Virus record (IMG/VR): IMGVR_UViG_3300005613_000225 | Location: 1 to 34,399 of that record | DNA length: 34,399 bases | Reading direction: 5' to 3' (one strand) | Origin: a virus | Shown: in pieces, positions 219 through 15,829 of the stretch | Layout of the letters: the number at the start of each line of letters is the position of its first letter | Position numbering within the stretch: the stretch's first letter is position 1 | Translations under genes and position numbers: made by a program | The notes under the pieces: model-generated | Databases searched by the model: none | What the model was told of the DNA's origin: nothing | Seen by the model: the letters and a program-made list of their open reading frames with translations, nothing else

Positions 219-242
219 TATGTGCCAATTTTTTAATTGGCC
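219..242. repeat. 24-bp repeat copy 1, at the 3' end of the ligase-like gene
   Basis: This 24-bp stretch matches 1836-1859 at 22 of 24 positions. It contains the inverted repeat GCCAATT/AATTGGC with a 4-nt loop (224-241). Both copies cover the stop codon of a minus-strand gene in the same operon. It could be a small hairpin or a trace of recombination between gene ends. Confidence 0.6.
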
Positions 243-1114
243 CACTTTTTGATTTGGTTGAAATTTGCAGAACTGAATACTTCACGATCTACAAGTTTAA
301 TCATCTTCCCAGATTCATCAGAAATGATAAATCCCTCCTGTTTAACTTTAAGACCATTAATATATGCAGTTGGAGCATCATGAATGATCAGAGAATCAAT
401 AAACTCCTCTTTCATCTCAATTACCATCTGATAAAGATTTGTGAGATGGTTGCATCCTAAAATAGAGGTAAGAGTCTCATCTGTAAGTGGTATTCCCTCA
501 CGAATACAAAAATTAATTGATTTCTTGCGTTCTTGAACTTCTTTCTCAGTTAAAAACTGAATGTTCTCCACATTTACGGAAGGTGCGGATGTATTTCCGC
601 AGACTCGATCTACACTTGGTTGAATCCATTTTACATTTTCCGTATCCTCAAACATTTGAAGAATGGGAAACGCAACAACTTCCCTTAGGTCGTTTCCTTC
701 TGCGTAAAATGTGTGTGGAGCAATCACAATTGCTTGATTGATGACTTCTGGGAAATGATATGAAATAAGTTGTGGATCATATACATTAGACCCACCAAAT
801 CCAATGAAGTCTCCCTGATAGATTGCATCAGTTCTTGGAAGATATTCAAAGCAATCATGAAGAATTTCTGCAACTGCATCCTCATAATGAAGATCAATCT
901 CTTCATGAGAATGTGCAATCCGAATTTTCTTTTTGTTAAAGACAGCTTTAGTGCCAACAAAGAACTTACCAGTGGCAGGATTGGTTCCCCATACAATTGC
1001 AGGGGACCCATCCATCTTTACTGAGATATGATGTGGATTGAAAAGAGTTTCAATTGCAGAGAGATCACCAGTCAGAATGGTGTCTTCAATATGCTCAATG
1101 TGCTTGTTTTGCAT
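233..1114 (-). CDS. Covalent nucleotidyltransferase-like protein (RNA/DNA ligase fold), putative
   Basis: A 293-aa protein with the motif set of the ATP-dependent ligase/capping superfamily. Motif I is KMDG (residues 33-36), whose lysine would carry the AMP. A motif III-like segment is IYQGDFIGF (98-106), motif IV is QEGFII (259-264), and motif V is KMIKLVDRE (270-278). The order and spacing fit RNA ligase-type catalytic cores. The start is placed at ATG 1114, which overlaps the upstream stop as TAATG; an in-frame TTG at 1138 would add 8 residues but lies inside the upstream small gene. It is the last gene of the operon, followed by a terminator. By family, such proteins seal or repair nucleic acid ends; the substrate here is unknown. 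I infer the fold from motifs only. Confidence 0.65.
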   Translation of the reverse strand: MQNKHIEHIEDTILTGDLSAIETLFNPHHISVKMDGSPAIVWGTNPATGKFFVGTKAVFNKKKIRIAHSHEEIDLHYEDAVAEILHDCFEYLPRTDAIYQGDFIGFGGSNVYDPQLISYHFPEVINQAIVIAPHTFYAEGNDLREVVAFPILQMFEDTENVKWIQPSVDRVCGNTSAPSVNVENIQFLTEKEVQERKKSINFCIREGIPLTDETLTSILGCNHLTNLYQMVIEMKEEFIDSLIIHDAPTAYINGLKVKQEGFIISDESGKMIKLVDREVFSSANFNQIKKWAN

Positions 1115-1242
1115 TAATGAGTGTGAGTGTGTTCGCAAGTGTGCTCATGGTCCACAACAAGACCTGGGATATATGGATGTCCAAATTCCCAAAGTAGAGT
1201 TGCGACTAGTCCTACAAATAGATACTTGAGTGAGTTATTCAT
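1114..1242 (-). CDS. Small single-span membrane protein with His-rich tail (42 aa)
   Basis: The ORF starts MNNSLKYLFVG and has one hydrophobic segment (about residues 5-18). A short GHPYIPG motif follows, then a hydrophilic tail HEHTCEHTHTH containing six histidines and a cysteine. It is tied into the operon on both sides: its ATG overlaps the preceding gene's stop as ATGA (1242-1239), and its own stop overlaps the next ATG as TAATG (1116-1112). The 44-aa protein at 2754-2888 has the same plan (LKY, hydrophobic span, P-x-IP, HxH ending), so the two look like paralogues. It probably sits in the inner membrane with a metal-binding tail. It does not match the high-light-inducible motif. Function unknown. 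Confidence 0.75.
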   Translation of the reverse strand: MNNSLKYLFVGLVATLLWEFGHPYIPGLVVDHEHTCEHTHTH

Positions 1243-1772
1243 GATACTAAAAATTGTTTTTCGTAGTTTAACAGGTCTTGAGGTGCCGGAATGATATTAT
1301 CATCACATTTCTCAGAGTTCTTCCACCTAGATCCATTCTTCCGATAAAGTTGAATGTCAAGATGCTTGTACTTAAGATTGGTCGGCACATATACCTTATA
1401 GTCGATCCCATCATTGTTTGTCAAGAGGCTCAACTGCTTGTTTTCTGATTTCGTGACGGTGATCGTGGAACATGCCAACCAAAAAAGATTTTCAAACAGA
1501 TCATAATCTTCCAAATACTTATCTGGGTTATCCATAATCATTCGCCCAATGAACTGTGGAGATAGGCAATGATCGGTTGTTTTTTCATCCAGATTATTCA
1601 TCGCAGATTCACTAATCAATCCAAGATGATTAACACTTCCAGAGTCAAAAACATTGATGTAAAAGATTCTGGAAATTGGTCGATAAAAATCTGGATCTCC
1701 CCAGTCAGCAACGTTTGCTTTTAGTGCATTAAAAGCGACTTTACAATACGCTTTCCAATTTCGTTTTTTCAT
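1239..1772 (-). CDS. Hypothetical protein (177 aa)
   Basis: I do not recognise this protein. It begins with a basic stretch (MKKRNWKAYCK) and is otherwise mixed alpha/beta in composition. A TDHCLSP segment (66-72) and GRMIMDNP (76-83) look like conserved turns. There is no signal peptide or membrane segment. Its stop overlaps the ATG of the following small membrane gene by 4 nt, which argues for coupled translation. A 62-nt gap separates it from the gene upstream, the largest gap within this operon; the gap holds a weak TATACT but no convincing -35. Confidence 0.7.
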   Translation of the reverse strand: MKKRNWKAYCKVAFNALKANVADWGDPDFYRPISRIFYINVFDSGSVNHLGLISESAMNNLDEKTTDHCLSPQFIGRMIMDNPDKYLEDYDLFENLFWLACSTITVTKSENKQLSLLTNNDGIDYKVYVPTNLKYKHLDIQLYRKNGSRWKNSEKCDDNIIPAPQDLLNYEKQFLVS

Positions 1773-1834
1773 ATTGACTCATAAAATAGTGTGGGCATTG
1801 TCAGTATAAAGGAACATCATCGGATAATTTCCGA

Positions 1835-2089
1835 TTATGTGCCAGTTTTTGAATTGGCCTTCTTACGGACCTTTTTCTTTGGTTTTTCTTCAGGTTTGAG
1901 TGATGGATACTTGTATCGAACATCAATCTTCAAACGGGGTTTTTTAATCTTATCATATTGTTTTTGCATGTGCTCATAACACATGAAATATGCAATTTTT
2001 TTTGCCTTTCCATCCACCCATTCCATGCGAACGGGAAACATATCATATGGAAAGAGTTTGTCAAGTTCTTCTTTTGAAAGTCGGGGCAT
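1835..2089 (-). CDS. Small basic hypothetical protein (84 aa)
   Basis: This 84-aa protein has a folded-looking N-terminal part (PRLSKEELDKLFPYDMFPVR) and a strongly basic C-terminal tail of Lys, Pro and Arg (residues 66-80). The tail would suit nucleic-acid or membrane binding. Its ATG overlaps the stop of the oxygenase gene upstream as TAATG. Its 3' end carries one copy of the 24-bp repeat also found at 219-242. No family recognised. Confidence 0.7.
   Translation of the reverse strand: MPRLSKEELDKLFPYDMFPVRMEWVDGKAKKIAYFMCYEHMQKQYDKIKKPRLKIDVRYKYPSLKPEEKPKKKVRKKANSKTGT
1836..1859. repeat. 24-bp repeat copy 2, at the 3' end of the small basic gene
   Basis: It differs from 219-242 at only two of 24 positions, lies in the same orientation, and again spans the end of a minus-strand gene. 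The internal inverted repeat is less perfect than in copy 1. Confidence 0.6.
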
Positions 2090-2754
2090 TACAAATACTT
2101 TCTGGCAATTTTGTTACATTTTTCACGAAAGTGAGAATGTAAGGACGTTGAAAATTTGGAAAGATTCATATGATCAGTTCCATTATCGTGTCTTGCTGTC
2201 ATCATATCATAATACCTCCACCTACGCAAGTCTTCCATATCCGGAATGTATGAAGTTGTCCAGAAGACAATCACATCACGATCACCATAAGTAACATCGT
2301 TTACGCAATGTGGGGTTCCAGTTTCGTAGGTGATTCCATATCCAGGATCAAGTTTAAATTTTTTTTCTTCACAATTCAACCACAAAACTAACTCTCCACC
2401 ATGATATGAGTTTGGAGGGTTTAAAAAAACTGTTGTGCTGAAATGTCCACAATTAATGTGGTCGAAGTGTGGTCGATAATAACCGCCTTTTGGTGTCTTA
2501 GTTCCCATTGGCACTGAACTATGTTTAGCATAGGTAAAGTTCAAAAACTCTAAGTTATTATCTAATCCATTGAAAACAATTGGGTGATCTAAATTACATT
2601 GAAAATTTTTTTTGACTAAACTTAAATCCTTATCTGGAAATTTTTGAGATTTTGTTAGAGATTGAAGTCCATTGTGCCACTCCGATTCGCCCATAATTTT
2701 TTGGATGGACCTTAATTGATCATAATTAAAAAATTTAGATATCAAATAATTCAT
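2089..2754 (-). CDS. 2-oxoglutarate/Fe(II)-dependent oxygenase (prolyl-hydroxylase-like)
   Basis: A 221-aa cupin-fold dioxygenase. The iron ligands are visible as H96-x-D98 (in YYRPHFDHI) and H149 (in TGTPHCVND), with R159 placed to bind 2-oxoglutarate. GGELVLW (119-125) is the usual strand between them. Length and motif order fit PKHD-type hydroxylases, which oxidise protein side chains or nucleobases using O2 and 2-oxoglutarate. Marine cyanophages commonly carry several such genes. It is overlapped by TAATG at both ends: with the small His-tailed membrane gene upstream and the basic protein downstream. The substrate cannot be told from sequence. Confidence 0.85.
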   Translation of the reverse strand: MNYLISKFFNYDQLRSIQKIMGESEWHNGLQSLTKSQKFPDKDLSLVKKNFQCNLDHPIVFNGLDNNLEFLNFTYAKHSSVPMGTKTPKGGYYRPHFDHINCGHFSTTVFLNPPNSYHGGELVLWLNCEEKKFKLDPGYGITYETGTPHCVNDVTYGDRDVIVFWTTSYIPDMEDLRRWRYYDMMTARHDNGTDHMNLSKFSTSLHSHFREKCNKIARKYL

Positions 2755-2888
2755 TAGTGGATATGAACAATACCATTTTCATGAACGTGAGGAATTATTG
2801 GATTATATAAATGCGTCTGACCATGTTGAATTCCGGCACCCAATAATCCAAAAAAGATGAGAATGGGAACATATTTTAAAAATTTCAT
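2754..2888 (-). CDS. Small single-span membrane protein with His-rich tail (44 aa)
   Basis: The protein starts MKFLKYVPILIFFGLLGAG, a basic start followed by one hydrophobic helix (residues 4-20). A polar tail follows with seven histidines, including HVH and a terminal HIH. It shares its layout (LKY, span, P-x-IP, HxH end) with the 42-aa protein at 1114-1242. Its stop overlaps the oxygenase ATG as TAATG, and a CTAAATA motif lies 22 nt upstream. An Fe(II)- or other metal-binding role next to Fe(II) oxygenases is possible but is only inference. Confidence 0.75.
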   Translation of the reverse strand: MKFLKYVPILIFFGLLGAGIQHGQTHLYNPIIPHVHENGIVHIH

Positions 2889-2910
2889 GAGTCTTTTGAA
2901 AAGATCGATT

Positions 2911-2917
2911 TATTTAG
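2911..2917 (-). promoter_or_regulatory. CTAAATA late-promoter-like motif
   Basis: Minus-strand CTAAATA ends 22 nt before the ATG at 2888 and uses the TAA stop of the upstream oxygenase. It resembles T4 late TATAAATA. Alone it could be chance in AT-rich DNA; the repeated spacing at other genes gives it some weight. Confidence 0.3.
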
Positions 2918-3522
2918 TCAAGATATATTGAAGCAGCAGAATGAACCCATCCTGTAACAATGTATTTTGCATTTGATTTGGGTGGATATCCACGATGAAC
3001 ATAAGTCCATGTTGCGGGAAATATAATCATTTTTCCCATTTCAGGTTGAATCCGAGTCCCATCAATAAATTCTGTATATCCATCCTCAAAAACATCATTC
3101 AAATACCAAATAAAGGTCAAAAATCTTGGAGCTTTTTCTTCATTCACACAACTAAAATCACTATGCCAAGTATAAAATTCACCAGGCAAAGTCCTCTGCA
3201 TTTGATAACCATTGTCTTGAAATCGATGAGACACTGTTTCTAATTGTGCCCAATCGTATTTTTCAACATACTTGTGCAAATTTTTATTTAAAGACTTGTA
3301 GAATATATCATCAATTTCCTTCCAATCATCATAGTCAGAAAATGTGAGATCTGTAGATTGTTTAATTCTGGGAATGTATCCAGATCCAACTATTCCATCA
3401 TAAGTTCTTTTATCATTTTCAAATTTTTCAATACATTTCTTACAAAATTCCTCTGATAGTTCGTTTGAAATGATTTCAATAAGATCACTAAATTTTTCAA
3501 ACTTATGTTTATGATTTGTCAT
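2914..3522 (-). CDS. 2-oxoglutarate/Fe(II)-dependent oxygenase
   Basis: A 202-aa protein with the double-stranded beta-helix signature. Iron ligands are H120-x-D122 (FYTWHSDF) and H176 (TYVHRGYPP). The 2-oxoglutarate contact is probably K186 in AKYIVTGW, and FPATWTYVH (168-176) is typical of the 2OG-FeII_Oxy_3 group. It is distinct in sequence from the second oxygenase downstream, so the operon encodes two different enzymes rather than a recent duplication. Between them lies only the 44-aa membrane peptide. Substrate unknown. Confidence 0.85.
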   Translation of the reverse strand: MTNHKHKFEKFSDLIEIISNELSEEFCKKCIEKFENDKRTYDGIVGSGYIPRIKQSTDLTFSDYDDWKEIDDIFYKSLNKNLHKYVEKYDWAQLETVSHRFQDNGYQMQRTLPGEFYTWHSDFSCVNEEKAPRFLTFIWYLNDVFEDGYTEFIDGTRIQPEMGKMIIFPATWTYVHRGYPPKSNAKYIVTGWVHSAASIYLD

Positions 3523-3530
3523 GGTTCTTT

Positions 3531-3908
3531 TTAAATGTTATATTGGTATAGGAATCCATCATCAGTAGTATAATGCACTTTGTCAATTCCCGATTCCTTT
3601 AATGCAAGGGAGCAAATGGGACATGGTTTTGCCATTCTCAATTTATTTTGGGGATTAACTCTTGCTACTACTATTGTATCACATTCCTCCCTACATTTGA
3701 CAAGAGCTGCAATCTCAGCATGAAGATATATTTTCTCATGAAGACCCACACGCTCTGCAAATTTTGCTTGAAGTGGATGTGATTTTGATTCTAAGTTAGT
3801 TGCAGTCACCACAACCTTGCTCTTATTTAACAAGATTGCACCAACTCTTTTTTTAGATGGTGAAGACTTGGCCACCTCAATGGCAAGATCATAAACTGAA
3901 TCAAACAT
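3531..3908 (-). CDS. Cytidine/deoxycytidylate deaminase-family protein
   Basis: A 125-aa zinc deaminase with HAE (residues 63-65; His is a zinc ligand and Glu the proton shuttle) and PCPIC (95-99; two Cys zinc ligands). These define the CDA/dCMP deaminase fold. The start is taken at ATG 3908, which overlaps the helicase stop by 8 nt (ATGTTTGA); an in-frame codon at 3935 lies deeper inside the helicase gene. Members deaminate free nucleosides or nucleotides, tRNA or DNA bases. It is shorter than T4 dCMP deaminase and I see no allosteric-site region, so the substrate is open. Confidence 0.8.
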   Translation of the reverse strand: MFDSVYDLAIEVAKSSPSKKRVGAILLNKSKVVVTATNLESKSHPLQAKFAERVGLHEKIYLHAEIAALVKCREECDTIVVARVNPQNKLRMAKPCPICSLALKESGIDKVHYTTDDGFLYQYNI

Positions 3909-5148
3909 AACCAACCGCAGGAATGCCCTTGTCAAAGATCGTATTCACCAGTTCCTGTAGGCGTCGTGCAGTGGCAACACCAGTCTTAGAATGAACAGGA
4001 ACAGTCACATAACCACAAGGTTTACGATAAGAATCAAGTTGACCAGCAATCAACTTACCATCTGCAATGTCCTGAGAGTCATCACGATCCATACGAATCA
4101 CACGACCAATGGTTTGTGCCATCTCAATAATGGGAAGTTGACGAAGAAGAATCGCATGAGTCAAACCAGGAACATTGATACCTTCAGACAGAATGCTGTA
4201 ATGAAACAGAACAAACTTACGAGACTTATCTTTACCCCAGGATTGCAGAGTCTCAAAGAACTTCTCACGATCAACTTTCTGACGATTCACATAAGCACCA
4301 TACTTAGAGGTGATATGAAGAACATCATAACCACGCATCTCAAGTTGAACCAAAAGATCTGATTTGGTCAGAGTATTCCACAGAACTTTGGTATTTGGTG
4401 CAGCAACCAACACTTTAGCCGAATCATCATCAAGTTCATCCAGAACATTCAATACAGTATCACGATCAATGGAATGTGCATTCTCCTTGTTTCGTTGGAC
4501 ATCAGTCTGATAAGGAACAATCTGAGGAGGAATGATACTACCATTGTCAATCAATTCCGGTGCAGGAACGTTGATAATCGTATTGCCATAAATCTCAGAA
4601 TTATTCATACCACGACCCAAGGGACTCCGAGAGAACTTTGGAGTTGCAGTAAAGAAATAAGCATTATCAGAACTCATTGATGTTGCAGCAACACCCACAA
4701 AATGACCCTTCTGAGTTGCATTGTGTGCCTCATCAAAATAAGCATAGTTGATCTCAATGCCAGAATCAACAACACGACTCAAAGAATGATACGTTGTAAA
4801 GAGAATCACATGAGTATTGAAACAATCTTTGAGTTTTACAAACTTCTCAATCTTATCCAGATTAGTGGATCTCCAGTGATGAGTCTCACCAGAATGGACA
4901 TGACCGATCACGAAGTCCACATGCCCCCTCAGAGCACTCTCAAACTCCTCAGACAACTGTGTAGCCAGAAGGATACGAGGAGCAGCAATGACCACCGTCT
5001 GAGGCGTCTCTGAGGCGCTGAGACGACGCTTCAGATCCTCAATCATGATCATGGTCTTACCACCACCTGTAGGGCAGTAGACACACCCTCTGGAGGTTTT
5101 CAGTAGGGCATCCAGAGCACGTTTTTGATGAGGACGAAGAGTAAGCAT
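3901..5148 (-). CDS. Superfamily 2 DEAH-box helicase
   Basis: A 415-aa SF2 ATPase with a Q-motif-like RPHQKRAL at residues 5-12, Walker A PTGGGKT (26-32), DEAH (139-142) and TATP (167-170, motif III). In the second RecA domain there is SEGINVPG and motif VI QTIGRVIRMDR. Both RecA domains are complete. The start is ATG 5148, preceded by GGGAG at good spacing, and a TGCTATAAT extended -10 lies about 25 nt upstream. It opens the nine-gene operon ending at 233. I do not think it is UvsW, because the N-terminus begins directly at the helicase core. It probably remodels DNA or RNA; the exact role is unknown. Confidence 0.85.
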   Translation of the reverse strand: MLTLRPHQKRALDALLKTSRGCVYCPTGGGKTMIMIEDLKRRLSASETPQTVVIAAPRILLATQLSEEFESALRGHVDFVIGHVHSGETHHWRSTNLDKIEKFVKLKDCFNTHVILFTTYHSLSRVVDSGIEINYAYFDEAHNATQKGHFVGVAATSMSSDNAYFFTATPKFSRSPLGRGMNNSEIYGNTIINVPAPELIDNGSIIPPQIVPYQTDVQRNKENAHSIDRDTVLNVLDELDDDSAKVLVAAPNTKVLWNTLTKSDLLVQLEMRGYDVLHITSKYGAYVNRQKVDREKFFETLQSWGKDKSRKFVLFHYSILSEGINVPGLTHAILLRQLPIIEMAQTIGRVIRMDRDDSQDIADGKLIAGQLDSYRKPCGYVTVPVHSKTGVATARRLQELVNTIFDKGIPAVGYV

Positions 5149-5171: not shown

Positions 5172-5180
5172 ATTATAGCA
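5172..5180 (-). promoter_or_regulatory. Extended -10 promoter for the helicase-deaminase-oxygenase-ligase operon
   Basis: Minus-strand TGCTATAAT (5180-5172) combines a perfect -10 hexamer with an upstream TGN. The -35 region falls in the terminator stem and is poor, as is common for extended -10 promoters. The ATG lies 24 nt downstream, with GGGAG before it. Confidence 0.55.
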
Positions 5181-5181
5181 G

Positions 5182-5204
5182 AAAAAAAGACCCCCGAAGG
5201 GGTC
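5182..5204 (-). terminator. Rho-independent terminator after the 513-aa helicase gene
   Basis: Minus-strand GACCCC/GGGGTC forms a 6-bp stem closed by a TTCG tetraloop, followed by seven T residues. It lies 29 nt beyond the helicase stop codon and immediately before the next operon's promoter. Confidence 0.85.
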
Positions 5205-5208
5205 CTGT

Positions 5209-5232: not shown

Positions 5233-6774
5233 TCATTCAAAAAGTGATTTTACGGAACGATCATCGCAAATTTCAGATAATGTAACTAGAGAGTGGACAA
5301 TATCTTTAACTTTATCCCAGGAAGCAGTATAATACTTATCAAACTCTTCTACAGTCAATTCCCAATGACCGCCTGGAGTAGATGGATAATGAAACTCAAA
5401 TGTATTTGCAATACTAAGAACCTCATAAAAAATTTTTGGATCTACATCATAATCATTACAATAGTTCATACACATTTTCTGCATATCATATTCATATTTT
5501 TTTGCAAGAATGTTACCATGTCCAGAATTCATACGAGTAGCACGACCAATGATTTGACGGGAAAGTTCAGTGCAATTCGTCGTTTTTGGATCACGAATTC
5601 GCAAGGAACAAATACCAGTAAGATTAAAAACGTTGATCCCAGCTTTTGCTTTATTATTAACAAGGAGGAATTGACAGTCAGACTCCTTATTCTTAAGACA
5701 TTCGAGAATATCATCTTCACTTGCAGAAGTAAAATCTCCCTCTAGATTGTAAAATCCTTTTTTTGTATGTGTCATAATAGAAATCCACTGACATGCGGGA
5801 GAATATCCATTATTATACAAAATACTCGACAACATTTCAACAGCATCATTTACATGAATTGAAAGTCTATTATTATTATTCCCTCCACACATAATCAAAG
5901 AAGATAGTTTAGAAACAACATTATAATCAATTCTCCGCAACTCTTCAAGTTTTTTGATATTACTTATATGATGATTGATAACATAATTTTCAAAAATTTC
6001 TTCACATTTTTGCCTATCAATAACGATTCGATCCTTACCATTGTATTTTTCAGTCACATAACCAGGATACTCAATATAGTTTTTACCCCATTTTGTAAGC
6101 AATGGACGTTCATTGACAGGACATAGATCATTCAAAAAATGAAAACATCCATCACCAACAACTCCTCGATGCTGTTTAGTTGGAGTTGCAGTAATACCAA
6201 AAACTAAATCAGTTTTTTCTAAAATGCTACTTGAAAACTTATATGCAGATCCTCCAAATTTTTCAGTATTATGGCCAATGACCTCTTCATACCATTGCTG
6301 TTCAGTGACTCCCAACCAAGAATGACACTCTTCAATAAATAACGCAGATTTATGACCAAAATCAATTAATTGTTGTCGATATACAAGACACTTGCCTTGA
6401 GTATTGCAAAGAGATGAATGTGTCAATCCAACAACAACTTTTTTTTCCTGTTTTAACCAACGAAATGCTTCATCAACAGACCTAGTAAAAAAATACCCAT
6501 GACTTTGACCAGCGTCCACAAAAGAATCTTTATCAATATTTTCAACATTTGGTGCAGTATAAATTACAAGTTCAACACCATTTTGAAACAAATGTGGAAT
6601 ATATACATTAGTAGTGCTAAACGTTTTCCCAAATCCCGTAGGACCTTGCATTAATTTAATTAAATATCTATGCCTTAACCTTTCGCTCTTATCTGAAAGA
6701 TAATCAAAAAATGGATTGATCATCCACTCTTCACGCAATTTTTTTGGATCCTTCAAAACCATTTTGTTTGACAT
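5233..6774 (-). CDS. Superfamily 2 helicase-like ATPase with EECH motif II
   Basis: A 513-aa protein with Walker A GPTGFGKT (44-51), EECH as motif II (148-151; the usual first Asp is Glu), TATP (195-198), and motif VI QIIGRATRM (407-415). The C-terminal 80 residues are an extra domain I do not recognise. The layout resembles helicase parts of type III restriction-like enzymes, but no nuclease motif is visible. A TTGACA-17-TATCTT promoter lies upstream and a terminator follows, so it is a single-gene unit. Only about 30% identity-level resemblance by eye to the neighbouring 415-aa helicase core, so not a recent copy. Function unknown. Confidence 0.75.
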   Translation of the reverse strand: MSNKMVLKDPKKLREEWMINPFFDYLSDKSERLRHRYLIKLMQGPTGFGKTFSTTNVYIPHLFQNGVELVIYTAPNVENIDKDSFVDAGQSHGYFFTRSVDEAFRWLKQEKKVVVGLTHSSLCNTQGKCLVYRQQLIDFGHKSALFIEECHSWLGVTEQQWYEEVIGHNTEKFGGSAYKFSSSILEKTDLVFGITATPTKQHRGVVGDGCFHFLNDLCPVNERPLLTKWGKNYIEYPGYVTEKYNGKDRIVIDRQKCEEIFENYVINHHISNIKKLEELRRIDYNVVSKLSSLIMCGGNNNNRLSIHVNDAVEMLSSILYNNGYSPACQWISIMTHTKKGFYNLEGDFTSASEDDILECLKNKESDCQFLLVNNKAKAGINVFNLTGICSLRIRDPKTTNCTELSRQIIGRATRMNSGHGNILAKKYEYDMQKMCMNYCNDYDVDPKIFYEVLSIANTFEFHYPSTPGGHWELTVEEFDKYYTASWDKVKDIVHSLVTLSEICDDRSVKSLFE

Positions 6775-6853: not shown

Positions 6854-7335
6854 GAGGTCTGCCAATCTTTTTTGAGTCTCACTCCAAGAACCCTCACCAT
6901 TAAGTCCAGACTCACCTGTTGTGGCCTACCTTTCCAACCATACCAATGAGTTTTCTTTCCCCTATCATGTGGAGGAAATTTACCCACCGTCCAGTATTGT
7001 TCTGCGGTAGCATCATAAACCCGACCTTCATATTGCAACCACCAGTGTTTCTCTCCCCTATAATCTTCCGCACTATATGAAACTAACTCCTCCGTATTCA
7101 TTAAGTAATATAAAGCTTGTGTCGCATGATAACAATGTCCATAATACTGAACCTTTCCTCTATCCTCTGGATATAATAACTTCTTATGTTTTAAAAGATC
7201 ATCACTGAGATTTCTTTGAATCAATCCCATCACTAATCCCATATTATTTTCATTGAACTCCCATGGTTCAAACTCCAAATATCTTGTAGATATAATCTCA
7301 TTCTTATTATATCTAGATCTTTCAACAATCTTCAT
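6850..7335 (-). CDS. Putative transglutaminase/cysteine-peptidase-fold protein (161 aa)
   Basis: I do not recognise a named family, but the residue pattern suggests a papain-like or transglutaminase-like fold. C68 sits at a helix start (GHCYHATQALYYL). H97 follows in KHWWLQ, and D108 is in GRVYDATAEQY, resembling the H..W...xDPT signature of transglutaminase-like domains. The protein is rich in Trp and Tyr and has no signal peptide, so it should act in the host cytoplasm. It has its own consensus-type promoter and is likely expressed early, which would suit a protein acting on a host target. The catalytic assignment is inference. Confidence 0.55.
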   Translation of the reverse strand: MKIVERSRYNKNEIISTRYLEFEPWEFNENNMGLVMGLIQRNLSDDLLKHKKLLYPEDRGKVQYYGHCYHATQALYYLMNTEELVSYSAEDYRGEKHWWLQYEGRVYDATAEQYWTVGKFPPHDRGKKTHWYGWKGRPQQVSLDLMVRVLGVRLKKDWQTS

Positions 7336-7374
7336 GAGCTTAGCTAAAGGCCCCTTATCTTCTCTGACAAGCCG

Positions 7375-7403
7375 ATTCTACTCACACTTTAGAGATTTGT
7401 CAA
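7375..7403 (-). promoter_or_regulatory. Sigma70-type promoter for the 161-aa gene
   Basis: Minus-strand TTGACA (7403-7398), a 17-nt spacer and TAGAAT (7380-7375). It begins just after the stop codon of the 779-aa fibre gene. Confidence 0.65.
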
Positions 7404-7406
7404 GTA

Positions 7407-9746
7407 TCAATAGAAATCATTCCAAGTAGTTCCATCATACCCTTGATGTTTATTAGTTGAAGAATTATAGATAAAAGCACCAGAATAAGTAGAAAGACCA
7501 TCTCTTTGTGCAGTAGTTAAAACTGGAGGCAATAAAAATGCAAGTTCATCAGTTCTTTCACTTAAGTCAATTGCAGATTTTGGTGAAGTAGTACTAAACC
7601 CAAGATTTGCAGTAAAAGTACTAAATCCAACAATTAAATTTGTATTAGAAATAACTCCACCATCTTCATTACTAATTGTTAATGCTGATCCAATAGTTGT
7701 GACACCAGTGATTATAAGATCACTATTAATAGCCGAAATTGAAGCACCAGCACCAGCAATTAGATTATTTGTAACATCTAATTCAAAAAATGTTGAGATT
7801 CCAGATGTTGTATAAAAGTTTTGACTCTCTGGGAATGAAATTGCACTATCGAGAAACAATTCTCCAAGAATTTGAACACTACTTCCAATTGATACAGATT
7901 CTGTACGAATCGCAACATTTCCCGCAATATCAACTTCATTAAAGGTACAGAATCCTACATTTGAATTACACTCAAATTGTTGAACTGTTGTTGCTCCACC
8001 TACCAATAGATTTTCAAGAACTTCAAGGTTTGAAAATGTTGAGATCCCTTCAGAAACATTTAAATTGAAACTTGGTTCATTTGTAAAACTTAAAGCCCCA
8101 CCAACAATAAAATCATTGACTGTAGTAACACCAACATTCGTAAAATAATTAAAATTGGTCGCTTCTAATTTGAAGGTATTTGATACGGTAACATCATTAA
8201 ACGTTGAAACTCCTGATGTGGTGAAAATATTACTTCCATCTGGAAGTAATACTGGGTTTGTAAAGACTGCATTTCCGTTGACTGTGAGATTTCCATCAAC
8301 ATCAAGATCAAATGCAGTTGAAATTCCAGAAGTTGAATTGTATATTAAAGTTCCACTAATTGTAATATCATCATCAATTGTAGTTGCACCATCAATATAA
8401 ACAGTTCCCTCTAGAGAGGAATTTCCCACAACTTGAAGTTTTACATTCGGATTTGTGGCACCTAATCCCAAATTACCATCTTTTGTAAGAGTCATATCCT
8501 CACTAAAGGGATTTCCTCTCAACCATCTAAATGCACCATTTGCATTTGCAATCGATATATTTCTTCCTAAAAAGAATATATTGTCACCATTTGAGTAGTT
8601 TGATAACTCTAATCGATCAATTTCCTGTCTAAGTTCAGCTGTACTTTGACCAATTCCTAGGTCTCCACCTAGATTTAAAGTTGCAGCACCAGTTTCAGTT
8701 AGAATTTCTAAGTTTGTTCCCTCCTGTTGAAAAAGAACTAAGGTTGACTGCGGTTGAGTTGTACCAATACCAATCGCACCATTTGTGACATTAAAAATGG
8801 AACCACCAGTTCCGACTCTTAGACTGTTTTGTGTGACAGTTAAAATGCCAACTGCAAGATCTCCTGTAATATCTGCTCTAGAAACAGTAAATGCAATACC
8901 AGCATCAATGATATTTGCAGAAACAAATCCAACACGAATATCTGGAGTTCCTGTGAGTGATCTTGCCGTAGATGCAACAGCAGTTAAAGTTCCAGTAACT
9001 TCTGCATCAGTAAAAGTTGAAAATCCAGATGAAATAACATCACCTTCAACTTGTCCGACTAAACTCCCAATAAATCCACCTTGGGCAGTTAAAATGCCAC
9101 TAATTTGTAAATTTGGTTCTAACTTGAAATCTGGAATTAGTGGTATTTTATCAAGTTCTAATCTTGGAATTCTCGCTTGAGTTACAATACCAGATGTAAG
9201 TTCATCCGCATTTAGATCTGTTAAGAAATTGCCATCACCAACAAATCTAAATGCTGTAATAACACCAGATGCATATACGGAACCCTCTCTAACGGCAAAT
9301 CCAGTGAAACCTGCTTCTGGGTTTGCACCAACCTGCAATGTGAATTGTGGAAGTAATGTGCCGATACCAACGTTACCTCCATTGTAGATACTGGAAACAC
9401 CAATACCAGTATCTACATCCACCCACTGTGAAGTTGGAATATTTGCAAGAGCTGATCCATCACCAAAGAAAGAAACAACTCCACTTCTGGCAGTCAGAAT
9501 TCCATTTGTGAATGAAAAATCTCCAATAATAACACTTTTACCAATTCCAGTTTCAAGTGTTGCACCAGCAGAAACGATAACTTCTGAAAATGTAGTGAGA
9601 CCAGAAAACGTCGCATCCCTTCGGACATCAAAAAACTTCTGTGGAATTGAGGTTCCAATACCAACTAGAGATCCATTGACGACAAAAGTTTGTTCGTCAA
9701 CTTGAACACCCTCTCTAAAATTAAATACCTTCTTATAGTTAGCCAT
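7407..9746 (-). CDS. Tail fibre-like virion structural protein (779 aa)
   Basis: A long repetitive protein made of beta-rich segments. Recurrent units resemble GIGTxxPxxxL and GVSTFxxLxVxxNLxVGG, the pattern of trimeric fibre shafts and adhesin heads. The N-terminus (ANYKKVFNFREGVQVDEQTF) probably attaches to the particle. The C-terminus (about residues 720-779) carries a YNSSTNKHQGYDGTTW segment common at the tips of phage fibres. It follows the 1945-aa fibre gene and is preceded by TAATAAATA, a T4-late-like promoter. It probably takes part in host recognition. There is no chaperone-type autoprotease domain. Confidence 0.75.
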   Translation of the reverse strand: MANYKKVFNFREGVQVDEQTFVVNGSLVGIGTSIPQKFFDVRRDATFSGLTTFSEVIVSAGATLETGIGKSVIIGDFSFTNGILTARSGVVSFFGDGSALANIPTSQWVDVDTGIGVSSIYNGGNVGIGTLLPQFTLQVGANPEAGFTGFAVREGSVYASGVITAFRFVGDGNFLTDLNADELTSGIVTQARIPRLELDKIPLIPDFKLEPNLQISGILTAQGGFIGSLVGQVEGDVISSGFSTFTDAEVTGTLTAVASTARSLTGTPDIRVGFVSANIIDAGIAFTVSRADITGDLAVGILTVTQNSLRVGTGGSIFNVTNGAIGIGTTQPQSTLVLFQQEGTNLEILTETGAATLNLGGDLGIGQSTAELRQEIDRLELSNYSNGDNIFFLGRNISIANANGAFRWLRGNPFSEDMTLTKDGNLGLGATNPNVKLQVVGNSSLEGTVYIDGATTIDDDITISGTLIYNSTSGISTAFDLDVDGNLTVNGNAVFTNPVLLPDGSNIFTTSGVSTFNDVTVSNTFKLEATNFNYFTNVGVTTVNDFIVGGALSFTNEPSFNLNVSEGISTFSNLEVLENLLVGGATTVQQFECNSNVGFCTFNEVDIAGNVAIRTESVSIGSSVQILGELFLDSAISFPESQNFYTTSGISTFFELDVTNNLIAGAGASISAINSDLIITGVTTIGSALTISNEDGGVISNTNLIVGFSTFTANLGFSTTSPKSAIDLSERTDELAFLLPPVLTTAQRDGLSTYSGAFIYNSSTNKHQGYDGTTWNDFY

Positions 9747-9762
9747 TGATGGTGTTTTGAAT

Positions 9763-9771
9763 TATTTATTA
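9763..9771 (-). promoter_or_regulatory. T4-like late promoter motif (TAATAAATA)
   Basis: Minus-strand TAATAAATA contains the TAA stop of the 1945-aa gene and ends 16 nt before the ATG at 9746. The same 9-mer, again including a stop codon, precedes gene 26 at 26419-26427. It matches T4 late TATAAATA in its AAATA core. Confidence 0.5.
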
Positions 9772-12700
9772 TAGGACTCTAATAATGTAGAAAAGACCAA
9801 TGTAAGGGGGTAGATTTCGATTTGTTCCGGTGACTCCTGAAAGATCTGCTGTAACTGTGTGTCCGTGCCCACCAGCATTTCCCGTATTATGTCCATGACC
9901 ACCACCATCATTTGTATTGTGATTATGGCCCCCAGCACCACCAATATTGTGTGCGTGAGCACCATTACCACCAATACTGTGTCCATGATTTGGTGCGGTA
10001 TTTGTATTATGGCCATGGGCACCAGCCCCACCAGTCCCACCATGACCATGATTACCTGCGGCATTTACACCGTGACCATGATTTCCAGAGTTTCCTGTTC
10101 TAAGGTTCCTATAATTGTTTCGTGCAGATCGACTATTTCGATTTCCATACTCTACAGCTGATCCTTCAGTTCTACTGTAGTCATGTGTATGATTTCCTCC
10201 ACCAGTGGCATTATGGCCATGAGCACCACCACCACCAACGTTATGTCCATGGTTACCCACATTACTGATATTATGACCATGAGCACCAGCACCACCAATA
10301 TTGTGTCCATGATTTGGTGCGGTATTTGTATTATGAACGTGATCTCCGACCGCATTCACACCATGAGTATGGTTTGAAACATCACTTACATTATGAGTGT
10401 GATCAGAAACATTTGATGCATTAATATTATGAGTATGACTGATAACATCAGAATCTTTTTGACCACCAGTTCCACCAAGATTATAGATACTTCCGGCAGT
10501 CACAACAAATCGATCTGTCAAATCTGGCAATAGGAATGTGGATCCTGATGGATTTGCACCATATGGGAAACTCAATCCACCATTAGTCAATGTATCATAA
10601 AGTTCTGGATATGTCGCCTGAGACAATGTAGAACCATCACAAACTTTCCAATTTGCTGGAATGGAGCTGCTATTTCCTGCCCATGAAATAATTGCACCAA
10701 TTGGTGGTAAATTTGGAGCATCAATAAATTGTGCAGAAATATCACCAACAACATCAAGATCATCATCAATTCTAGTGAGTCCAGTCGCACTATCTAACGT
10801 TAAGTCTCCAGAAGTAGTCTCAATTTTTGAGGTGGATGCGGCAACGCCAATATTAATATCTGCAAGATCTGCACCAGCATCACCTTGAATCAGTCCTGCA
10901 AAAGTGCCAACACCAGCAACATTTAGAGCGCCTTGAATATCAGCACTTCCACTAGATCTAAATCTTCCAGTGACTTCAAGGTTTGCATCAATTTTTGTAT
11001 TACCAGTAACATTTAAAACATTGTTAACAGTGAGTGGGCCATCAAATTGTGAAAGAAGTGTCTTAGCAGGACCACCTTCAACAACTAGACGTTGACCAAT
11101 GGTAACTTCATCAAAGATAACGCTCAGAACTGATGCATTTTCGCCACGAACAGTTGGAATTGGTGCATCAAATGTAGATTGCTCACCAGTTGATGGATTA
11201 ATAATCGTATTACCAATGAAGAAGTCACCATCATTGTTCATAGCGGTGTATACAACCACACCACCAGATCTCTTTTGAGACTGTGTTAGAAACTCTTCTT
11301 TATCAGTCAAACTGATTGTTTGTACCTGAGGTAGACCAGTTGAATAGTTACCAGGACCATATCCTAAGTATTCAAATGTATGACCAGAACCTCTCAAAAT
11401 AGAAGGTCTACGAAGTTCTGCACCTTTAACTTTAATTCTACGAACAAGTGCTCCCTGTTGATGTGTCTTTGTATCCGCACCAAGATAACCTCTGATGACA
11501 GTTAATTCATCATTGTTTGATCCAGAGAGTTCAGAACTGGCGATTCTCATGATTTCGCCATTAATTTCAATAAAGGATCCAATTGGGAATCTCTTATCCG
11601 TAGAAATGCCAGAGTTTGGCATACTGATGATAACTTTATTATCAGTCTCACCAGAACCAAGATCATTGTTCAGAATGCCAGATTCACCATCAAATAAGTT
11701 ATAAACTCTGGAACCAATAGATTCAGTATCTGCAGTAATATCACCACCCTTTGCATTAAATGCTGAAGGAAGAATTAGATGTGGATTTGTTCTTAATTCA
11801 TCATTTGTTGCGATTGTTACGGTCAGAATACCAACTCTTTCAAGAACGGTATAGTCACCAACTTTATTGTTAGATGTATCTACCAAACGGAAACTAGATC
11901 CAGCAACAAGGCCATGTGCATTGTTAGTAACAATTGTTGAGATGCCACTGAAAGTAATGATTGTGTTAATTCCAACAACCTTTCCACAATCAATGAGATA
12001 TTGATTCTCAATTGGATTTGGATCGCCAGAAGTAATAGCAAAGGAAACTTGTGTCTTAGATGGAGTTGAAAGAACTCGATAAATTCCATCATCAGTCTTA
12101 CCAACACCAGTCAGTTGAATTGCATTATCAACAAAAGTTGTAATGCCAGAATTTGCAATTGTGATCTCTGCACCAGTAAATCCATCTAGATCAAGTGTCT
12201 CTCCATCAGAATATCCAGATCCACCAGAAATAATCTGAACATTTTCTACTGCACCACCAGAACCAACAGTGACTCTTGCTGTTGCTCCATCCCAGTCAGA
12301 TGTTCCATCATTTAGAAGTTTGACATTATAGTAATCACCTTCGGTAAATCCACTTGCTCCAGTGAGAGTGGAGTACGTCACAATACCAGATAAGTTATGA
12401 GGACGATCTAATGTGACAGTTGCAATACCAACGACATCATTTCTTTCAAATGAAACAATTGTCCTACCAAAACCAATCGCCTTAGATAGATAGTCAACAC
12501 TTTCTCTGGTGATGCTATTTTCGGGGTCATCAACAGCAACATCTGCAATTGGAGATCTCTTTGCAAAAGATTTAGCTGCTCTTGGGTTTGGATCTACATT
12601 ATCTCTATCAAGTTGTGGATAGAATCTTTCAATTTTTGGTAGAAACTTAAGATTTGTAAATTCTTCAGTAATTGCATTATTTGCCGCAAGAACATTAAAG

Positions 12701-15654: not shown

Positions 15655-15670
15655 AACTGTATGATTAAGT

Positions 15671-15753
15671 GCGAGAAGGGGGACTTGAACCCCCACGTCC
15701 TAAAGGACAACAAATTTTAAGTCTGGTGCGTCTACCAATTCCGCCATACTCGC
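15671..15753 (-). tRNA. tRNA-Leu(UAA)
   Basis: An 83-nt minus-strand sequence folds as a class II tRNA. The acceptor GCGAGTA pairs with TTCTCGC with one T-T mismatch. The anticodon loop CTTAAAA gives anticodon TAA, and there is a variable arm GTCC/GGAC. The T-arm has a GGGGG stem and TTCAAGT loop. No CCA is encoded. The anticodon stem contains a weak C-T pair. It reads UUA (and perhaps UUG), a frequent codon in this AT-rich phage. It lies one base after tRNA-Ile and is probably cotranscribed from the promoter at 16212-16240. Confidence 0.9.
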
Positions 15754-15754
15754 T

Positions 15755-15829
15755 TGGTAGGACCGCCGAGAATTGAACTCGGTTCACACGCTTATAAGGC
15801 ATGGGCTTTAACCAATAAGCAACGGTCCC
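15755..15829 (-). tRNA. tRNA-Ile(UAU)
   Basis: A 75-nt minus-strand cloverleaf. The acceptor GGGACCG pairs with CGGTCCT (G-T at the first pair), the D-stem is GCTT/AAGC, and the anticodon stem is CATGC/GCGTG around loop CTTATAA (anticodon TAT). The T-stem is CCGAG/CTCGG with a TTCAATT loop, and the 3' CCA is encoded. It reads AUA, which bacteria usually decode with a lysidine-modified CAU tRNA, so the phage brings a direct decoder. It is separated from tRNA-Leu by one nucleotide. Confidence 0.9.

Follow-up and report, generated by a model that had tools for sequence, protein, structure and literature searches.

The DNA analysed here, referred to as the window, is the whole 34,399-nt stretch (positions 1 to 34,399) of the IMG/VR virus record IMGVR_UViG_3300005613_000225, a 34.4-kb fragment of a viral genome. 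It carries nine co-oriented genes on the minus strand (233–5148), and we read this block, with a probability of roughly 0.7, as a promoter-headed mosaic accessory cassette that brings together 2-oxoglutarate (2OG)-Fe(II) oxygenases of the protein-hydroxylase type, a spare helicase, a deaminase and a relocated nucleotidyltransferase of the DUF6267 family. The block comes shortly after the tail-fibre genes in a T4-like phage of marine cyanobacteria and is a further member of an already known kind of accessory region. The closest isolates are Synechococcus phage S-T4 (Kyanoviridae, Tamkungvirus) and Sf-CH8, with 63% identity to S-T4 in the last gene of the block. A preliminary description had seen here a closed operon whose products could form one nucleic-acid pathway; overall, that interpretation is partly supported, and the idea of a single pathway is not needed by the data.

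Layout and gene order of the block

All nine genes were confirmed, and nearly all of them overlap or lie very close together, as previously described: from the helicase to the ligase-like gene, the junctions measure −8, +8, +25, −1, −1, +62, −4 and −1 nt, so that seven of the eight fall between −8 and +25. The exception is the 62-nt gap at 1773–1834, between the genes for an 84-amino-acid (aa) and a 177-aa protein. The extra small genes of relatives are inserted at this position, which is an insertion hot spot within the block.

The block had also been described as closed by terminators at both ends and headed by its own extended −10 promoter. Both terminators are present on the minus strand, one belonging to the upstream gene and immediately preceding the block (5187–5206; 8-bp stem, T-rich tail) and one following it (194–219; 9-bp stem and T tail), and they are the strongest of nine terminator-like sites, against 5.7 ± 2.6 in shuffled sequences. 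The promoter, TGCTATAAT (5172–5180, minus strand), directly follows the upstream terminator, and no −35 element is evident because the extended −10 abuts the tail of that terminator. Most of the 11 relatives with a readable helicase start show the same succession, with the hairpin in the same place and then, equally far from the start of the helicase gene, TGnTATAAT or a close variant; S-PM2 retains TGCTACAAT with no clear hairpin, and in one relative (locus L184) the −10 is GATATGAT. The recurrence of hairpin and TGnTATAAT among relatives supports the 5′ boundary and the promoter. No such conservation holds for the 3′ boundary: a hairpin-plus-T site within 200 nt past the last gene was found in only 2 of 19 relatives, and closure at this end is peculiar to the window. 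Judging from this layout, the nine genes are probably cotranscribed.

Relative contigs were gathered by their similarity to three genes of the block (the last gene, the deaminase gene and that for the 177-aa protein), which biases the sample toward contigs that contain these query genes. Five or more of the nine genes were found in 16 contig clusters, one of which is the window's own copy, leaving 15 clusters of relatives; seven clusters hold all nine gene types in essentially the same order. The variants include a 44-aa peptide gene (peptide 1) placed ahead of the first oxygenase (three clusters), a 42-aa peptide gene (peptide 2) shifted beside peptide 1 (three clusters), replacement of the PKHD-type oxygenase by another oxygenase (two clusters) and genes added at several junctions, so that insertions, swaps and losses all occur. 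The region at 5.5–13.4 kb of S-T4 resembles the block in gene types, in the order from helicase to DUF6267 and in promoter layout, but it has extra genes between the members, among them a further two 2OG oxygenases that carry the annotations 'DNA endonuclease V' and 'ferrochelatase'. Beyond the close relatives, the deaminase is present in many contigs without the other small genes, and distant relatives carry the block genes apart; among 11 complete cyanomyoviruses, the deaminase occurs in three and DUF6267 in all 11, usually elsewhere in the genome. The preliminary description had proposed a check of gene-order conservation, with independent scattering as the outcome that would speak against it: close relatives keep the order, while scattering is what is seen outside the lineage. 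The block is thus an accessory cassette of changing assortment, which holds together inside one lineage and is mosaic outside it, and not one pathway. The part most constant in relatives is a short second UvsW-like helicase with several oxygenases of the protein-hydroxylase type, to which the deaminase, the two His-tailed membrane peptides and the small proteins have been added.

Helicase, deaminase and oxygenases

The enzyme identities proposed earlier, namely an ATPase or helicase, a zinc deaminase and two Fe(II) dioxygenases, agree with both the motifs and the family matches. The first gene (3901–5148, minus strand) encodes a putative superfamily 2 (SF2) helicase of 415 aa with the motifs GGGKT, DEAH and QTIGRVIR (phrog_16, E = 1.1e-65; ResIII, E = 1e-16). 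It shares the SF2 core motifs and the PHROG with T4 UvsW but lacks the N-terminal substrate-recognition region, matching phrog_16 only from position 270. A separate, longer UvsW is also present in S-T4, Sf-CH8, S-PM2, P-SSM2, S-SCSM1, S-BM3, S-SM1 and P-SSM3, and the copy in the block would be a second, short one. The next gene (3531–3908, minus strand; 125 aa) matches the dCMP-deaminase family (PF00383, E = 1.6e-11), and the best profile match is the deoxycytidylate deaminase 4p9c (E = 5.8e-9), with which it shares the zinc motifs HAE and PCxxC (here H63AE and P95CPIC). It appears to be a distant relative of dCMP deaminases and most likely supplies dUMP for thymidylate synthesis.

Oxygenase 1 (2914–3522, minus strand; HSD120–122, H176) is of the prolyl 4-hydroxylase (P4H) type, with a PF13640 match (E = 5.9e-14) and P4Hs as the nearest solved structures. 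Oxygenase 2 (2089–2754, minus strand; HFD96–98, H149) is of the PKHD/PiuC type, matching PiuC structures (E = 8e-8) and NF003974 (E = 8.8e-27) with 94 bits, below the 143-bit cut-off. Both have the HxD...H iron site of PiuC/YbiX and of bacterial prolyl 4-hydroxylase, which are their best PDB and NCBIfam matches, but both score under the NCBIfam equivalog cut-offs. On these similarities, the two enzymes would belong to protein-hydroxylase types rather than to AlkB or TET/JBP, and they most likely hydroxylate proteins, either of the tail or of the host. In S-PM2 and S-SCSM1, the oxygenase genes stand among the tail-fibre genes. A survey found phage 2OG oxygenases to be structurally similar to the human prolyl hydroxylase EGLN3 (PMC12774648).

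Sullivan et al. 2010 put forward a metabolic role for cyanophage 2OG enzymes (PMC3037559), in which use of 2-oxoglutarate would adjust the nitrogen signalling and the energy supply of the host; the block would then be host-metabolism cargo. This leaves unexplained both the sequence match to peptide hydroxylases and the position by the tail-fibre genes in S-PM2 and S-SCSM1, and we consider it quite unlikely. The occurrence of a helicase, a deaminase, oxygenases and a ligase-fold enzyme in one unit conserved among close relatives favours the pathway of the preliminary description, in which bases would be deaminated or hydroxylated, and strands unwound and re-ligated, for modification, repair or anti-defence. 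The oxygenase types and the independent assortment of the block genes both speak against that idea. As for anti-defence, known defence-system models gave generic helicase and 2OG domain matches and nothing beyond. A single pathway therefore appears highly improbable, and the block is better read as the mosaic cassette described above.

Genes annotated as 'DNA endonuclease V' or 'ferrochelatase' in cyanophage records also matched 2OG-Fe(II) oxygenases, partly above and partly below the Pfam cut-off. They lie at 11637–12200 and 9316–10173 in the S-T4 record (L082) and at 4124–4633 and 6909–8270 in two further loci (L084 and L086, respectively), and the neighbourhood is therefore richer in oxygenases than annotated.

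DUF6267 and its candidate NMNAT-like partner

The last gene of the block (233–1114, minus strand; 293 aa) had been called ligase-like, and this call was upheld. Its start is favoured at the ATG at 1114, in a TAATG overlap, over a TTG at 1138. The protein belongs to DUF6267 (E = 3e-77), the only family to pass in a Pfam scan; Pfam and PHROG (phrog_455) both label it as of unknown function, and older cyanophage annotation calls it T4-GC_71. We built a structure model from 54 viral sequences (predicted local distance difference test, pLDDT, 90.4). In VIA-align, it matched the Naegleria gruberi RNA ligase with a Z of 8.8 (root-mean-square deviation 3.8, 179 aligned), T4 Rnl1 with 8.7 and T4 Rnl2 with 6.6, and all 50 matches listed were DNA, RNA or tRNA ligases. 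Across 21 DUF6267 sequences down to 27% identity, K33-x-D35-G36, K56, Q100-x-D102 (QGD in the block protein), E260-G261 and K273 are invariant, appearing in the block as KMDG...EG...KL, and we read these residues as ligase motifs I, Ia, III, IV and V, all in place. In the aligned ranges, K33 lies opposite K35, the motif I lysine of T4 Rnl2, and K273 falls about one residue from the lysines of motif V in Rnl1, Rnl2 and the Naegleria ligase; over the aligned ligases, the two lysines lie opposite or at most about four residues from those of motifs I and V.

Like T4 Rnl1, T4 Rnl2 and the Naegleria ligase, DUF6267 has the fold (as predicted), a KxDG motif I, a basic Ia, an acidic III, EG at IV and the first lysine of V. 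Unlike them, it has a helical insert at about 190–240, an invariant N-terminal HxxHxED, Asp at motif III and one lysine in motif V, where K273 is invariant and the second position is Val or Ile (KLVDR, KIVDR, KLINR) in place of the KxK pattern. It also has no recognisable extra domain and falls outside Pfam RNA_ligase and RNA_lig_T4_1. PF09511 (T4 Rnl1) and PF09414 (Rnl2) both detect T4 and gave no match to the DUF6267 loci of 12 phages, PF01653 (the adenylation domain of NAD+-dependent ligases) gave none in 13 phages, DUF6267 loci included, and searches of PDB sequences with DUF6267, as a single sequence or as a profile, returned chance matches only. Taken by its modelled fold and motifs, DUF6267 appears to be a member of the covalent nucleotidyltransferase (ligase/capping) superfamily. 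It would most likely form a lysine(K33)–AMP and then pass the AMP to a nucleic-acid 5′ end, activating or sealing it.

DUF6267 is found in about 470 phage records and in a single copy in each of the 11 cyanomyoviruses examined. In S-SM1, P-SSM3, P-HM1 and S-CAM1, the DUF6267 gene follows uvsX-gp41-mazG and has an overlap with an NMNAT/cytidylyltransferase-like (hereafter NMNAT-like) gene, and a single frame of S-PM2 holds both the end of DUF6267 and an NMNAT-like domain. S-T4, Sf-CH8, P-SSM2, S-SCSM1 and S-BM3 have both genes, located apart. The record counts of the NMNAT-like and DUF6267 families are near-identical (374/61/24 and 371/61/24, respectively, for Synechococcus/Cyanophage/Prochlorococcus). 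A scan of 84,980 genomes in a prokaryote collection gave 19 DUF6267 loci, mostly on contigs of marine metagenome-assembled genomes or single cells; these contigs are probably phage-derived and thus give no clue to a cellular function. Ten of the 19, including that of the isolate Nonlabens xiamenensis, show the same neighbourhood, with the NMNAT-like partner about 1.6 kb or less downstream. The NMNAT-like partner in S-SM1 has been detected in the virion (PMC3037559), and NMNAT-like proteins are likewise reported from virions of S-SCSM1 (PMC9602691) and S-CREM2 (PMC10665884). In many relatives, DUF6267 would be the upstream partner of a virion-borne NMNAT-like protein, and in the window's lineage it would have been relocated into the tail-side block.

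The NMNAT-like protein of S-SM1 (locus L243, 8257–9420) begins with MKKFSAFLNEA and the DUF6267 protein of Stenotrophomonas phage DLP_6 (locus L248, 4317–5552) with MMKFTQFLAES. Both starts are reminiscent of the capsid-targeting sequences of T4.

Four ligase models (PF01068, PF01653, PF09414 and PF09511) gave no match in 10 of the 11 cyanomyoviruses (S-T4, Sf-CH8, S-PM2, P-SSM2, S-SCSM1, S-BM3, S-SM1, P-HM1, P-SSM3 and S-CAM1), whereas three of them do match T4. Together with the presence of one DUF6267 per cyanomyovirus, often next to gp43-uvsX-gp41-mazG, this could mean that marine cyanomyoviruses have their missing DNA ligase in DUF6267, which would seal replication nicks, and that its seat by the polymerase, UvsX and gp41 reflects that role. 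However, the freshwater S-CRM01 and DLP_6 encode a conventional PF01068 ligase besides DUF6267, the closest structures are RNA ligases and an oligonucleotide-binding (OB) fold domain is not evident in the 293-aa protein; we regard this explanation as unlikely. A closed NAD-driven adenylation cycle, in which DUF6267 would take AMP from NAD+ and the NMNAT-like partner would turn the released NMN back into NAD+, would be consistent with the co-occurrence, adjacency and fusion of the two families. It would also fit the invariant HxxHxED directly ahead of motif I and the single motif V lysine, a feature that NAD+-dependent LigA also has. Still, we judge it very unlikely: the NAD+-binding Ia domain is not recognisable in DUF6267, the partner's NMNAT activity comes from its annotation, and no NAD+-dependent ligase was among the 50 structural matches listed, an absence that is not exclusion.

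A proposal that we make tentatively, and hold to be on the doubtful side, is that DUF6267 and the virion-borne NMNAT-like protein may together be one phage system of two enzymes that has gone unrecognised. In it, a ligase-fold adenylyltransferase would be coupled to nucleotide or NAD+ supply and act at or soon after DNA entry, standing in for the DNA or RNA ligase apparently lacking in marine cyanomyoviruses, and the window's lineage would have moved the first enzyme into a tail-side protein-hydroxylase cassette. Neither the ligase-fold assignment nor the NMNAT-like pairing was found in the literature searched, which was thin on subscription journals and had no mention of DUF6267 by that name, and we claim no priority for them.

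Several observations weigh against the reading of the block and of DUF6267 given here. Foldseek alone gave DUF6267 no significant match (best E = 0.096), its top match still being a DNA ligase, and HHalign reached ligases marginally, with E = 0.0098 between DUF6267 and Rnl1 against 0.004 between Rnl1 and Rnl2, while the best of the unrelated controls gave 0.025; the Rnl1 alignment keeps motifs IV and V in register. Motif III has Asp (D102) where Glu is usual and motif V lacks its second lysine, so the activity of DUF6267 could be lost or altered. The deaminase differs from classical dCMP deaminases, 4p9c included, in its length of 125 aa and in N, K and HP residues that precede the zinc site and are invariant in its own family. 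A search of the two tail-fibre genes for collagen-like Gly-X-Y repeats, which could have been targets of the hydroxylases, found none.

Small proteins, neighbouring genes and implications

The two His-tailed membrane peptides of the preliminary description are real genes under purifying selection (median ratios of non-synonymous to synonymous substitution, dN/dS, of 0.11 and 0.18), each product having one hydrophobic segment and a His-rich tail. Peptide 1 (2754–2888, minus strand; 44 aa) ends in a conserved HVHxNGxxHxH tail and matches phrog_3637 (E = 7e-15; 15 homologues), and peptide 2 (1114–1242, minus strand; 42 aa) has the core GHPxIPGLVVDHEHTHE (14 homologues). The 84-aa basic protein (1835–2089, minus strand; phrog_1609, E = 3e-8) has 28 homologues with a dN/dS of 0.30 and is of unknown function. 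The 177-aa protein (1239–1772, minus strand) is highly conserved over many other viral contigs (71 loci), and its confident model (pLDDT 91.9) had no significant fold match in the PDB.

The gene content of the window is typical of T4-like myoviruses: from 34399 downward come thymidylate synthase, PhoH, an exonuclease, a single-stranded DNA-binding protein and baseplate, tail and tail-fibre-like genes, followed by a 513-aa helicase-like gene and the block. This helicase-like gene (5233–6774, minus strand; GFGKT, EECHS, QIIGRATR) is the gene next upstream of the block, from which the terminator separates it, and BLAST against the loci checked gave no relative of it. The window has only two tRNA genes, for Leu(taa) and Ile(tat), at 15669–15829 (minus strand) and just upstream of a long tail-fibre-like gene, and no known RNA family was found inside the block. 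Flanking repeats amounted to short two-copy pairs, which we take as chance. In the S-T4 record (NC_048049), the DUF6267 region appears twice with identical score, at 5.5 kb and 177 kb near both ends, suggesting untrimmed terminal redundancy in the deposit.

The names 'DNA endonuclease V' and 'ferrochelatase' on 2OG oxygenases in related genomes are misleading and are corrected here. DUF6267 occurs in abundant ocean viruses, and its predicted fold, putative active-site lysine and candidate partner make its function directly testable. The result also leads one to ask by what means nucleic acid is joined in cyanophages that have no recognisable ligase.

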